Of a stretch of 51,561 nucleotides of DNA, positions 8,619-43,744 are shown one piece after another; the first letter of the stretch is position 1; each line of letters starts with the position of its first letter. The notes under the pieces were generated by a model, which saw nothing but the letters and a program-made list of their open reading frames with translations, had not been told where the DNA came from and did not search any database. Origin of the DNA: a virus; the IMG/VR virus record IMGVR_UViG_3300037245_001095, positions 1 through 51,561 of that record; one strand, 5' to 3'. A program made the position numbers and the translations under genes.

Positions 8619-9722
8619 TTAGTCAAGAACAAGATGCCCCATAATCTTAATACGATATCTACCTAATAGTTGAAGATCATCCTGAGTATATTTAACAAAT
8701 GAATCTAATGTTGAGCCATCTAATTCTATAACAACACCAAGTTTATCTTCACCACCTGAAGTCTTTCTTACAGCTAATGAGAAATCTCCACCACCACCTG
8801 AACGAGTTATATATTCAACGTCGTATGCAGAAGCTCTCCAACCACCATTGTCAAATACAGCTAAAGCATAATATGCAAAAACAGGATTTTCAAAACCAAA
8901 ATATTCACCATTTGTTAAAGCTGTTAAATTACCAAATTTACCATCGTCACCGCCAGAAGTCATAATCATATCAATAATCATTCTTGTTAAATGCCACTTT
9001 TGACCATTAGGTGGATATGTTATAAATTTAATTGGTGAAGCAAAGGTACCTAAAATAGCCATATTAACATTGACACGTTTTGAAAACTCAACTTTAGCAG
9101 AGTCTAAGTCATGGGCAATTGGTGGTGTTATTGATATATCATTACCATCAACATCTACAACAGCATGCTGACTAAATCTTGTACCAAGAACTCCAGGTAA
9201 TGAGGTATCAACATAATGTATATTTAGATATTCTTTATTTGGTGCAGCGAGTACACTGAACCCGTGTCCAGCTTCAAGAGTTAATATATTTGTACCTCTT
9301 GTTGGTGTTCCAGTAATAACAATATCATTTAATTCTTGATACATAAAATGTTCAACTGAAGGTGTTGATTGATCTTGTCTATTAGTATCAACATTATTAT
9401 GAACAGTACCAATAATAATCTTACCAGTATCAGCTGAATCTCTATCACTATTTGCACACATAATATAAATATCAATAGGTTCTGACGATTTAAATTCTTC
9501 ACTCTGACTTAAGTCAAACATTCGTACTGCTTCATCAGGTATGACACCTGCATCAGTATCAGTTGGCTTTGTTGGAATATCAGGAGCATCTTCACCAGAT
9601 AAGCGATATGTATAATAATAGTATACAGTACTGATTGCTGAACTTAATTTTATACCTTTAATCCCTGATGCAATCTTTACCCATTGCCATTCAGGTATGT
9701 TTGTTACTACTGGATTTGCCAT
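8619..9722 (-). CDS. Virion-associated protein, likely tail or receptor-binding component
   Basis: 367 residues, the last gene of the late operon. It starts MANPVVTNIPEWQW with AAGGAG 7 bases upstream. The sequence is rich in beta-forming residues, glycine and threonine (TGTPTRGTNILTLEAGHGF and similar), typical of tail fibre or host-contact proteins. It has no catalytic motif that I recognise. Its position after the lysis genes and far from the capsid genes fits an adhesion or decoration role, but this is inference. Confidence 0.55.
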   Translation of the reverse strand: MANPVVTNIPEWQWVKIASGIKGIKLSSAISTVYYYYTYRLSGEDAPDIPTKPTDTDAGVIPDEAVRMFDLSQSEEFKSSEPIDIYIMCANSDRDSADTGKIIIGTVHNNVDTNRQDQSTPSVEHFMYQELNDIVITGTPTRGTNILTLEAGHGFSVLAAPNKEYLNIHYVDTSLPGVLGTRFSQHAVVDVDGNDISITPPIAHDLDSAKVEFSKRVNVNMAILGTFASPIKFITYPPNGQKWHLTRMIIDMIMTSGGDDGKFGNLTALTNGEYFGFENPVFAYYALAVFDNGGWRASAYDVEYITRSGGGGDFSLAVRKTSGGEDKLGVVIELDGSTLDSFVKYTQDDLQLLGRYRIKIMGHLVLD

Positions 9723-9743: not shown

Positions 9744-10229
9744 TTAAAAAACCTTAAACGCAATTATAGTAAGACCAATTGCTGATATAATGCTAATCAC
9801 TAATCCAATATTATTCTTCAGTTCTGCTTTCTTTATTTCTCTGTCTATATCCAAAAGCGACGTCCTCAAGTCTGATACTGAGCCTAATAATCTGTCGCCC
9901 GTATTCTTCAAGCTGACGTACTCCTCCAGTAATTTGCTCGAGACTGTTGCTAAGCCATTCGCTTTCTGCTCTAACGAACTCAGCAGTCGATTTACTTTCT
10001 GTTGAAATGTCGCTAGCCGAGCTTCCAACTGTGGCAACTTTATCAATAAATCTATTAACGTCAGTTGTGTATTGGTTGATAAGACGTTCAACTCCAGTGA
10101 AATCTCCCCAAGCTCCATTGTAAGTTCCGCGTATGTTGGCAACATTGGGTCTGCCGATAGCATACCAACAAATACCAAGGACAAAAGTAGTAAGCAGAAT
10201 AGTAATAAGATATTTCTTAAACATTTCAT
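9744..10229 (-). CDS. Membrane protein with coiled coil and C-terminal TM, overlapping spanin-like gene (frame 1)
   Basis: 161 residues: a leucine-rich N-terminal hydrophobic segment (about 5-22), a long heptad-like region (about 60-130, e.g. LEARLATFQQKVNRLLSSLE), and a C-terminal TM segment (about 140-160). Two membrane ends joined by a coiled coil resemble a unimolecular spanin, but there is no clear lipobox cysteine. It starts 5 bases before the 137-residue gene in another frame, both using CGGAG at ATGAAATG. The locus is unusually GC-rich for this genome, consistent with dual coding. It could instead be the shadow of the other frame. Confidence 0.5.
   Translation of the reverse strand: MKCLRNILLLFCLLLLSLVFVGMLSADPMLPTYAELTMELGEISLELNVLSTNTQLTLIDLLIKLPQLEARLATFQQKVNRLLSSLEQKANGLATVSSKLLEEYVSLKNTGDRLLGSVSDLRTSLLDIDREIKKAELKNNIGLVISIISAIGLTIIAFKVF
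9811..10224 (-). CDS. Spanin-like inner-membrane protein (Rz-type), nested in another frame
   Basis: 137 residues with an N-terminal TM segment (about 5-23, KKYLITILLTTFVLGICWYA), then a hydrophilic region with a helical C-terminus (RQLEEYGRQIIRL) and a charged tail. An N-terminal anchor followed by a periplasmic helix is the plan of i-spanins, which disrupt the outer membrane after endolysin action. It lies entirely within the 161-residue gene in a different frame and starts at the second ATG of ATGAAATG, about 10 bases after GGAG. Context is a holin-like gene directly upstream. Function is inferred. Confidence 0.6.
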   Translation of the reverse strand: MFKKYLITILLTTFVLGICWYAIGRPNVANIRGTYNGAWGDFTGVERLINQYTTDVNRFIDKVATVGSSASDISTESKSTAEFVRAESEWLSNSLEQITGGVRQLEEYGRQIIRLSIRLEDVAFGYRQRNKESRTEE

Positions 10230-10426
10230 TTCTTCTCCGACGATTTTCTCATATCATTTATAAGTGTAATCACACCTTTGACAACATTCACACCAAGATA
10301 AACCCAAGCTATTGTAACCCATTGATCACCTGTTATTAATTTTAAAAACAAACCAACTGTTGCTATTGTAAATACAATAAACTTTTTAGGCAACACTTTG
10401 TTAAAAAAGAAGTCTATATTTTTCAT
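10226..10426 (-). CDS. Holin-like small membrane protein
   Basis: 66 residues with two hydrophobic segments (about 17-32 and 36-55) and a basic tail RKSSEKK, the layout of class II holins that perforate the inner membrane. GAGG precedes the ATG. Its stop overlaps the first start of the dual-frame spanin-like pair (AAATGA), so the three proteins are translationally linked. Holins have little sequence conservation, so the call rests on topology and context. Confidence 0.6.
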   Translation of the reverse strand: MKNIDFFFNKVLPKKFIVFTIATVGLFLKLITGDQWVTIAWVYLGVNVVKGVITLINDMRKSSEKK

Positions 10427-10429
10427 AAT

Positions 10430-10873
10430 TTAATCCTCAATAAATATATATCTGTAATCAATAATACGACCAATTCGAGCTGTTTTTGAACCGTATTGTG
10501 AATAAGAATCAAAGGTCACATTGTCATTAAGAGCAACAATAACAAAATGTTCAACTACTTTATTACGTTCTGTGACACGTCTGAATCTTGCAATACGGTA
10601 CATCCATTTATCATCTTTTTTAACACGTTTGCCATAGACTTTTTTACCCATCTGACCACTTGTGATATGTAGAACCCCGGCCACGGCACCTTTAATCATT
10701 GTAACTTCTTCACCAACAAGTCCAACATTTCGACATAAGGTATAGACATTATTAACATCAGAAACTGACAAGCTAAGTCCAGATTTAAGTTCATATAATC
10801 TTGTGACGTCTAAAAAATAACATCCCCATTCTGCTAAATCAGGATGTATACCATCTGTTTTTTGATAAATCAT
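10430..10873 (-). CDS. DUF261-like papain-fold cysteine peptidase; endolysin candidate
   Basis: 147 residues. The N-terminus reads HPDLAEWGCYFLDV, with Cys18 in a GCYF motif, and the C-terminus has EHFVIVALNDNVTFDSYS, giving a candidate catalytic His and Asp. This Cys...His...Asp order resembles papain-like cell-wall peptidases, and the GCYF and HFV patterns recall DUF261 proteins known from Borrelia plasmids. Holin-like membrane proteins on both sides suggest that it degrades peptidoglycan. No peptidoglycan-binding domain is visible. It overlaps the upstream gene by 4 bases. Confidence 0.55.
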   Translation of the reverse strand: MIYQKTDGIHPDLAEWGCYFLDVTRLYELKSGLSLSVSDVNNVYTLCRNVGLVGEEVTMIKGAVAGVLHITSGQMGKKVYGKRVKKDDKWMYRIARFRRVTERNKVVEHFVIVALNDNVTFDSYSQYGSKTARIGRIIDYRYIFIED

Positions 10874-11163
10874 TTTTTCATACCTCTCTCAACAAAATAG
10901 TTAATCATACGAGTTGACATTGCTTCAACATTCTCAACAGAGGCCCTAAGACTGATGACATTTAATTCAATCTCATGATCTTTTTCTTTAAGTAATTCAA
11001 CATCTTCTCGTAGTTTAGTTAGTGTGCTAATCTCTACTGTTATTTGTACAAGCTTTTCATCCACTTTTTTAGACCGCCTTGAACTCGATATTGTAAACCA
11101 TATTACAATAATCAAAGCAAGTGCCCCGGGTCCATAGTTGTATAATACTGCAATAAAGTCCAT
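10870..11163 (-). CDS. Membrane-anchored coiled-coil protein in the lysis cassette
   Basis: 97 residues with one TM segment near the N-terminus (about 12-26, GALALIIVIWFTI) followed by basic SSRRSKK and a long coiled coil (VDEKLVQITVEISTL and on). The topology suggests an accessory holin or antiholin. AGGAG precedes ATG, and the end overlaps the endolysin candidate (ATGA). Exact role unknown. Confidence 0.6.
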   Translation of the reverse strand: MDFIAVLYNYGPGALALIIVIWFTISSSRRSKKVDEKLVQITVEISTLTKLREDVELLKEKDHEIELNVISLRASVENVEAMSTRMINYFVERGMKK

Positions 11164-14516: not shown

Positions 14517-15077
14517 TCACTCCATTATTGCAATCGACTTTACATTACTACCATCATATATCAACAATGGTGTTTCTCCAGCTTCCATTAAAGGTATTGC
14601 TCTTATAGCTGTTCCATTATAGTATCTTAATTTTTGATTTGTTAAATCTGCCTGATCAGCAATAATTACTGTACCATCTGCTAATTTCATTTGTAATTTA
14701 CCAGATGAGTCATAGCCCATTGCAATCATACTATATGTTTGAGTAAAACCATTATGTGACGCATCTACTTGAATCACGTGACAAACAACTCGTATTCCTT
14801 GTATTTTTTTACCAAGAGGATAAGTATAAGTTTTCTTGCCAGATTGGTCTGTAGAACCTAAGTATATCCAATTGTCTTCATATTTATAATAAAAATCCTG
14901 TGAAGCATCATTAGCTTCAAGACCACTCTGGGCTGCAATAAATGAAACATAATCTACATTGTGTGCAATTGCAAATGTTATAGTCCCTGTAGCAATATCG
15001 TCATAAGGGTTAGGAGCAGTTGGTCCAACATATGCATATGAATTATCATCACCATCATTTCCATAGGTTGGACCCAT
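14517..15077 (-). CDS. Tail-associated protein; start uncertain, possible frameshift with upstream lipoprotein frame
   Basis: 186 residues from ATG at 15077 (MGPTYGNDGDDNSYAY). There is no good ribosome site before this ATG. The upstream frame (15235-14978) reads MATDYARAPVI just before this point and then becomes low-complexity, as if the true protein switched frame here. The C-terminal half contains repeated KLADGTVIIAD and LRYYNGTAIRAI-like beta segments seen in tail proteins. Either a frameshift joins the two frames or translation starts here by coupling. Confidence 0.55.
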   Translation of the reverse strand: MGPTYGNDGDDNSYAYVGPTAPNPYDDIATGTITFAIAHNVDYVSFIAAQSGLEANDASQDFYYKYEDNWIYLGSTDQSGKKTYTYPLGKKIQGIRVVCHVIQVDASHNGFTQTYSMIAMGYDSSGKLQMKLADGTVIIADQADLTNQKLRYYNGTAIRAIPLMEAGETPLLIYDGSNVKSIAIME

Positions 15078-15235
15078 ACTATAACTGGTGCTCGGGCATA
15101 ATCTGTCGCCATATCTATATCCTCTTCATCTTCAACCTTAATTTCATTATATATAAAAGTATTTATATCTACTCTATTATTACAAGATACAATTAACATA
15201 CTTAATATAAATAAAAACCTAAACTTCTTAAGCAT
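14978..15235 (-). CDS. Small lipoprotein-like N-terminus in the tail region
   Basis: 85 residues from ATG at 15235. The start MLKKFRFLFILSMLIVSC is a good lipoprotein signal with cysteine 18 as lipidation site. After about residue 55 the sequence becomes Met/Leu-rich low complexity (MEMMVMIIHMHM), which looks like out-of-frame reading of the next gene, overlapped by 100 bases. It may be a short lipoprotein or the N-terminus of a frameshifted larger protein. Confidence 0.45.
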   Translation of the reverse strand: MLKKFRFLFILSMLIVSCNNRVDINTFIYNEIKVEDEEDIDMATDYARAPVIVWVQPMEMMVMIIHMHMLDQLLLTLMTILLQGL

Positions 15236-41588: not shown

Positions 41589-42227
41589 GTGAGAAGGAAA
41601 GTGAAGTCTGAGACCTTGATTACATTTTATGCAATACTGTTAATAATCATTATAATATTATTAAGTATGCTATGGGGTAATAAGATAGCATTAACAAATG
41701 TATTTGAACAACTTGATAATACGAAACAATTAGCCTATGACTTAACAAATAAGATTAGAATTATGGAACTTGATGAACAATTTGATTATCTTAATCCAAT
41801 TCATATTGATGATTTTGTCAGGCCAACATCACCTTTTGGTATACGAACCGTGCCAGATGAAATATATACAGGTGGTGCTACTGAACGAATGCACGGTGGT
41901 GTTGATCTGGTTGGCACGTGGCATGCTAGAGTGGTTGCTTCAGCTAATGGAAGAGTAATTGATAAATGGTTTGTTCCTGATGGAAAATATAGAAATGGTC
42001 ATGCAACGTTTGGTGGTTATATTCGTATCTTACATATTGATGGAAGTATAACAGGTTATGCACATCTAAGTGCTATATATGTACGAGAGGGTGATATAGT
42101 GAGCCAGGGAGATGTGATTGGACGAACCGGTAATACAGGTTTATCAACCGGTGACCATTTACATTTCAGTCTGGAATTAACTAAAGATGACTTTGTTAAT
42201 CCATTAAGCCATATTAAATTGAGGTAA
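41589..42227 (+). CDS. Membrane-anchored M23 (LytM-type) peptidase
   Basis: 212 residues from GTG. An N-terminal TM segment (about 10-29) is followed by a short helical stalk and a peptidase domain with zinc ligands H102 and D106 (HGGVDL) and H190-L-H192. M23 enzymes cut peptide cross-links in peptidoglycan. It lies in the accessory arm, far from the late lysis cassette, so early cell-wall modification or a second lysin role is possible. All key residues are intact. Confidence 0.85.
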   Translation: MRRKVKSETLITFYAILLIIIIILLSMLWGNKIALTNVFEQLDNTKQLAYDLTNKIRIMELDEQFDYLNPIHIDDFVRPTSPFGIRTVPDEIYTGGATERMHGGVDLVGTWHARVVASANGRVIDKWFVPDGKYRNGHATFGGYIRILHIDGSITGYAHLSAIYVREGDIVSQGDVIGRTGNTGLSTGDHLHFSLELTKDDFVNPLSHIKLR

Positions 42228-43351: not shown

Positions 43352-43744
43352 ATGAAAAAGATTTTAAGTTTGGCATTATTGGTATTAGTAATTATGTTGT
43401 TTGCTAGCTGTAGTTTGATAGAAACTACTGATGCAGATGTCGCATCCTACAATTTATCTAAAGATGCTGACATGTTCAGGATCAATCGAAGAGTTGTATT
43501 CTATAATGGGATTACTGATGCATATATCTTGTCTATAGAGGGAAGAAGTTCTGTAGAGTTCTTTCCTGATAAGTTTGTTGTTACTGTTAAAACAGGCCCT
43601 AATGAATACAAGAAGCATTACCTTGGTAGAGCTGATAATGTTTTCCCTTTTGTTGAACAGCTTGATGCCGTACCTGTTGATGTATATCATTATAAAGTAA
43701 TCTTTAAGCCTTCAGTAATTATACCAGATATAGAAATTAAATGA
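43352..43744 (+). CDS. Phage beta-sandwich lipoprotein
   Basis: 130 residues. The signal KKILSLALLVLVIMLFASC gives a lipobox with Cys20. The mature part has YNLSKDADMFRINRRVVFYN, TGPNEYKKHYLGRADN and a C-terminal VYHYKVIFKPS, which I recognise as a widespread phage lipoprotein family predicted to be a beta sandwich. Family members are suspected to act in superinfection exclusion. SD GGAG at 43341 lies in a 5-bp hairpin (CCTTA/TAAGG) that may limit translation. Confidence 0.7.
   Translation: MKKILSLALLVLVIMLFASCSLIETTDADVASYNLSKDADMFRINRRVVFYNGITDAYILSIEGRSSVEFFPDKFVVTVKTGPNEYKKHYLGRADNVFPFVEQLDAVPVDVYHYKVIFKPSVIIPDIEIK

Follow-up and report, generated by a model that had tools for sequence, protein, structure and literature searches.

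Two reading frames on the minus strand of an IMG/VR virus record, ORF161 and ORF137, overlap behind a single Shine-Dalgarno (SD) sequence; both carry a coding signal, and a like pair is present in a related phage. With a confidence slightly above even, we read them as two genuine genes in different frames of one mRNA, in the lysis region of an uncultured tailed phage, between which initiation is split and whose products form a two-component spanin-like device. Shared initiation, an envelope location, a partnership and a role in lysis are what we infer beyond the frames themselves. The window denotes the whole 51,561-nt stretch that was analysed (record IMGVR_UViG_3300037245_001095), and feature coordinates are collected in Table 1.

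Table 1. Features of the overlapping pair and its surroundings in the window and in the relative (L039 coordinates)
Feature	Position	Strand	Basis or remarks
ORF161, signal/membrane helix, heptad rod and C-terminal membrane segment	9744..10229	-	Hydropathy, heptads, AF2, coding tests
ORF137, i-spanin-like, N-terminal membrane helix then helical region predicted periplasmic	9811..10224	-	Hydropathy, heptads, AF2, coding tests
ORF161-only part, encoding its C-terminal membrane segment	9744..9810	-	GC 0.27; like layout at L039 4295-4433 in the relative
Proposed shared initiation site GGAG-AAGAA-ATGAAATG	10222..10238	-	One SD, ORF161 ATG, ORF66 stop, ORF137 ATG
ORF66, holin-like, two predicted membrane segments	10226..10426	-	Positional counterpart L039 3733-3978
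DUF261-like protein, 147 aa	10430..10873	-	Pfam PF03196, E=7e-5, 23.4 bits, under the curated cut-off of 26.1
97-aa protein, one N-terminal membrane segment, strong heptads, further putative cassette membrane protein	10870..11163	-	Sequence prediction
186-aa ORF	14517-15077	-	First ATG at 15077
ORF110, N-terminal membrane segment then helix	L039 3962-4294		Relative G019; hydropathy; heptads not significant
ORF127, signal, heptads and C-terminal membrane segment	L039 4050-4433		Relative G019; hydropathy, heptads

Layout, start site and coding signal of the two frames

ORF137 lies entirely inside ORF161 on the same strand, as the original prediction had it, in a +1 relation in which ORF161 codons start one base after ORF137 codons. 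The two ATGs (10229-10227 for ORF161 and 10224-10222 for ORF137) stand 5 bases apart within 5'-ATGAAATG-3', and a single GGAG at 10238-10235 precedes both at a spacing of 5 nt and 10 nt, respectively, which bears out the predicted layout of two starts behind one SD. The TGA at which the upstream ORF66 ends (10228-10226), overlooked in the prediction, forms bases 2-4 of ATGAAATG, and these 8 bases hold one stop and two starts of three genes in three frames. A stop lies 8 codons upstream in each of the two frames, so the ATGs at 10229 and 10224 are the earliest possible starts and neither ORF is an extension. A start of ORF161 at an internal codon was rejected because the signal would be lost. 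By our arithmetic, the aligned spacing from GGAG to the AUGs (definition of PMC9841429) is 12 and 17, flanking the optimum of about 14; AUG initiation in that study was efficient across the broad tested range of aligned spacings, 10 to 16. The proposal that one SD serves both starts is compatible with these spacings, and initiation at both is plausible. RNA structure around the start was ordinary (z=-0.6).

Openness was assessed by holding one protein fixed and redrawing its synonymous codons by genome codon usage (20,000 draws, floor p=5e-5). With the ORF137 protein fixed, the 161 frame was expected to hold 10.5 stops on average, and with the ORF161 protein fixed, the 137 frame was expected to hold 13.1; 0 were observed in either frame (p=5e-5 in both directions). 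Shuffling of a gene's own codons gave p=0.027-0.049 for the 161 frame given ORF137 and p=0.0015 for the 137 frame given ORF161, and the third frame across the overlap holds 18 stops, matching expectation. Conditional tests, in which one protein was fixed and the other frame was forced open by sampling, compared the real with the sampled product. The real product was the more gene-like in composition (z=6.2 for 161 given 137 and z=7.4 for 137 given 161), compared with z of -2.4 to 2.3 for 34 accidental open stretches of at least 45 codons in well-supported genes of both phages. Heptads of the real products exceeded those of the forced-open samples (p=0.002 for ORF161, p=0.003 for ORF137), as did the hydrophobicity of the ORF161 N-terminus (p=0.002); that of the ORF137 N-terminus was unremarkable, being no more than ORF161 coding alone yields (p=0.26). 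The predicted GC enrichment was also found (0.406 in the overlap against a window mean of 0.336, with 4.4% of 414-nt windows equally high), and the part read solely by ORF161 has a GC content of 0.269. Without ORF161 and ORF127, its counterpart in the relative, the tight operons would hold unread gaps of 88 and 138 nt. The openness, conditional product and composition tests agree with the double coding proposed originally, and in our judgement it is very likely that both frames code.

The overlapping pair in a related phage

The relative, G019 (a 48.6-kb IMG/VR contig), was reached via portal alignment; terminase bait yielded just a 6.6-kb fragment as a true relative. G019 is syntenic with the window genome-wide, with ~40-70% identity in most shared proteins, and its pair, ORF110 and ORF127, is flanked as in the window by a two-membrane-segment ORF on one side and a conserved gene beginning MANPVV on the other. 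The two ORFs overlap by 245 nt in the same +1 relation as ORF137 and ORF161; stop codons in one frame of relatives, which the original prediction had named as contrary evidence, were not seen in the one relative compared. ORF127 starts at a GTG 88 nt into ORF110, with its own SD (AGGAG) 6 nt before the GTG. The overlap is therefore common to both phages, and the near-coincident start, singled out earlier as unusual, is known from the window only. The ORF127 signal is encoded by DNA that reads hydrophilic in ORF110. Composition in the relative gave z=5.9 for the 110 frame given protein 127 and a weak z=1.7 for the 127 frame given 110, and own-codon tests were not significant over this short overlap. 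Pairwise protein similarity is marginal (161-127, p=0.03; 137-110, p=0.22), so the correspondence between the two pairs rests on position, frame and topology.

A further contig, L041, obtained from a polymerase alignment and a DNA pattern of the MANPVV start, is the same phage as G019 (99.98% identical, cassette unchanged). No match was returned by direct searches with ORF161 and ORF137 (tblastn on phages, viral contigs and the relative's proteins), by neighbouring proteins used as bait in viral contigs or by a genome collection search, and these searches found no relatives at intermediate distance. At another locus of the window (26336-26686, minus strand), a 116-aa ORF shares 110 nt, in another frame, with the 3' end of the portal gene; all relatives found (L002, L033, L037/L040) have it too, which makes it a second case of conserved overlap within this phage group.

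Predicted products, cassette and comparison with spanin families

By hydropathy, ORF161 has membrane segments at residues 7-25 and 143-161 with a helical heptad region of ~115 residues between them; the C-terminal segment falls outside the overlap and had been overlooked. ORF137 has a single membrane segment, at its N-terminus, and heptad patterns exceed shuffles in both proteins. The AF2 model of ORF161 (two-sequence alignment, mean pLDDT 82) consists of helices 2-24 and 30-160, and that of ORF137, at low confidence (pLDDT 60), of helices 2-23, 42-67 and 73-136. Plausible cleavage sites were read by eye in ORF161 (LSA/DP) and ORF127 (VQA/QT).

Two-component spanins are defined by an o-spanin that is an outer-membrane lipoprotein with a lipobox (PMC6139136). 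Like members of that family, the pair shows extreme sequence divergence and has one member with an N-terminal membrane segment and a predicted periplasmic helix. ORF137 looks like an i-spanin in this respect, and the same predicted topology is found in ORF110, which also gave a weak PHROG match to an Rz-like spanin (E=0.005); among the window proteins, family searches returned no spanin match. Neither ORF161 nor ORF127 has a lipobox, and ORF161 thus fails the o-spanin definition. Its cysteines are confined to residues 3 and 12, within the signal, and LLFC was rejected as a lipobox; a six-frame scan near the cassette in both phages found none. Nor does the window pair have periplasmic cysteines for intermolecular disulfides, the sole ORF137 cysteine (residue 19) sitting in the membrane segment; ORF110 has a cysteine at residue 92. 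The original view that both proteins have spanin features therefore does not stand as worded: both have membrane and heptad features and ORF137 is i-spanin-like, but ORF161 ends in a membrane segment and has no lipobox.

Gene order also sets the window apart. In lambda the o-spanin gene lies inside the i-spanin gene, and ~70% of o-spanins of the embedded class have their start at 0.4-0.5 of the i-spanin length (Kongari et al. 2018, PMC6139136). The window pair resembles Rz/Rz1 (lambda, embedded) and the overlapped class (P2, T5, Jersey) in encoding two small putative envelope proteins in a +1 overlap after a holin-like gene. However, ORF161 starts 5 nt upstream of the i-spanin-like ORF137 and encloses it, so that its start lies neither inside nor after the i-spanin-like gene; the relative has the ordinary overlapped order. 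u-spanins carry a C-terminal membrane segment and a lipobox, their largest family (T1 gp11) has a beta-rich periplasmic domain, and 58/58 are without a periplasmic cysteine (PMC6139136). ORF161 and ORF127 share with them the N-terminal export signal and the C-terminal membrane segment, and ORF161 also the lack of a periplasmic cysteine, but both are without a lipobox and are overlapped by a second membrane protein, and the prediction for ORF161 is all helix rather than beta-rich. Given the missing lipobox and periplasmic cysteines and the misfit with u-spanins, we place the pair in neither family, yet consider a spanin-like mode of action most likely; if both frames code, a spanin-like role is fairly probable.

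The cassette has two-segment ORF66 upstream and the below-cut-off DUF261-like protein as a possible enzyme, with no confident endolysin or holin identification. Family searches with ORF66 gave no convincing match, and a DUF261 search in plasmids gave none; the DUF261-like protein is a candidate cell-wall enzyme of the cassette. Downstream of the pair, a 367-aa protein (window 8619-9722, minus strand) matches two separate ORFs in the relative (L039 4433-6110), one over residues 1-102 and the other over residues 112-360; these two ORFs are separated by a third. The 367-aa protein appears to be modular and is perhaps involved in host recognition. Homologous M23 peptidases are encoded at window 41589-42227 (plus strand), far from the lysis region, and at L039 6519-6986 (minus strand), near it, the relative's having a signal-like N-terminus. 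A class 3 lipase-like protein (Pfam PF01764, E=9e-9) is encoded at L039 1957-2580 (plus strand), just upstream of the relative's lysis region, and no counterpart was seen in the window.

Lipobox proteins were noted at two other places in the window. One of them, which is also the sole further lipoprotein candidate of this operon, lies at 14978-15235 (minus strand), five kilobases upstream of the pair. It is an ORF (MLKKFRFLFILSMLIVSC...) that runs through MATDYARAPVIV and beyond it goes on out of frame with the 186-aa ORF, as would be expected of a gene overlap or of a one-base frameshift, either programmed or an assembly error, close to 15080. The other, at 43352-43744 (plus strand), belongs to a widespread phage family, phrog_478, which is annotated as a recombination directionality factor and was matched in 797 phage records; since a factor for DNA recombination would hardly be expected to carry a lipoprotein signal, the family name may be wrong. 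In G019 no lipobox ORF was convincing.

Interpretation, alternatives and significance

Under the reading that we favour, ribosomes loading at the single GGAG would begin at either ATG, dividing between ORF161 and ORF137, and ribosomes ending ORF66 at the TGA within ATGAAATG would also be placed to restart at either AUG. ORF137 would be an i-spanin-like inner-membrane protein and ORF161 its partner, exported by the N-terminal signal, extended as a long helical rod and anchored by the C-terminal membrane helix. Together they would form an envelope-disrupting, spanin-like device acting at the end of infection, both members possibly being rooted in the inner membrane. The most specific form of this proposal, a spanin-like pair without a lipid-anchored member, made from one ambiguous initiation site whose 8 bases are shared by three genes in three frames, the i-spanin-like gene being enclosed by that of its partner in the reverse of lambda, is tentative, and we hold it to be possible rather than probable.

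The main competing view accepts that both frames code and takes the products for inner-membrane coiled-coil proteins of another kind (antiholin-like, for phage exclusion or with a role in a monoderm host). A spanin has no job in a monoderm host. Matches of the terminase, portal, polymerase and M23 proteins indicate phages of diderms as well as phages of monoderms, and those of the portal are only to Bacillus, Weizmannia and Clostridioides phages; ORF161 and ORF127, with a C-terminal membrane helix and no lipobox, would further allow both partners to be inner-membrane proteins, and the lack of spanin-family matches in the window is in keeping with such a role. We nevertheless regard it as rather unlikely, since the pair sits where the tail/lysis operon ends, directly behind a holin-like gene, ORF137 and ORF110 have an i-spanin-like topology in the shifted-frame overlap typical of spanin pairs, ORF110 has its weak match to an Rz-like spanin, and both phages have signal-like N-termini in which signal peptidase I sites can plausibly be placed, which hints at export.

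That ORF161 acts alone, in u-spanin order without lipid and held at the outer membrane through either a host protein or a helix that stays uncleaved, with ORF137 as a modulator, would suit its N-terminal signal and C-terminal segment, its single predicted helix 30-160 and the absence of a periplasmic cysteine seen in all surveyed u-spanins; the lipobox of u-spanins and the beta-rich domain of their largest family are nonetheless missing, and the relative also retains an i-spanin-like partner, which makes this improbable. Least probable is that only one frame is a gene and the membrane and coil character of the other is an accident of base composition. T-rich DNA can give hydrophobic segments in several frames, as the ORF137 N-terminus illustrates (p=0.26), and the relatives found are too distant for a substitution test. 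Against this stand the openness of both frames (p=5e-5 in both directions), composition scores far outside those of the controls, and the counterpart pair of the relative, in which ORF127 has its own SD and a signal drawn from DNA that is hydrophilic in ORF110. Two coding frames with a spanin-like function thus remain our preferred reading.

The start site has a known parallel in Thermus thermophilus rnpA-rpmH, where an ambiguous start, AUGGAUG, offers two AUGs behind one SD (discussed in Kohl et al. 2022, PMC9841429); that paper cites it as the only earlier bacterial case and names, besides it, a few E. coli and lambda sites. As there, the window has a nested gene and a single SD ahead of two AUGs that differ in frame and stand only a few bases apart, here with coding signal in both frames and aligned spacings of 12 and 17. 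In contrast to rnpA-rpmH, the genes encode predicted phage membrane proteins, an upstream stop falls in the same 8 bases, and dual expression is a prediction. If both proteins are made, it would be a natural case of one ribosome-binding site for two long genes in different frames, and the comparison of the window with G019 suggests how an overlap may move to the point where one gene contains its neighbour whole. o-spanin candidates without a lipid box were removed in a previous survey (PMC12596118), so lipobox-less pairs of this sort would be missed; if our reading is correct, a spanin-like pair can lose the very lipid anchor on which surveys filter.
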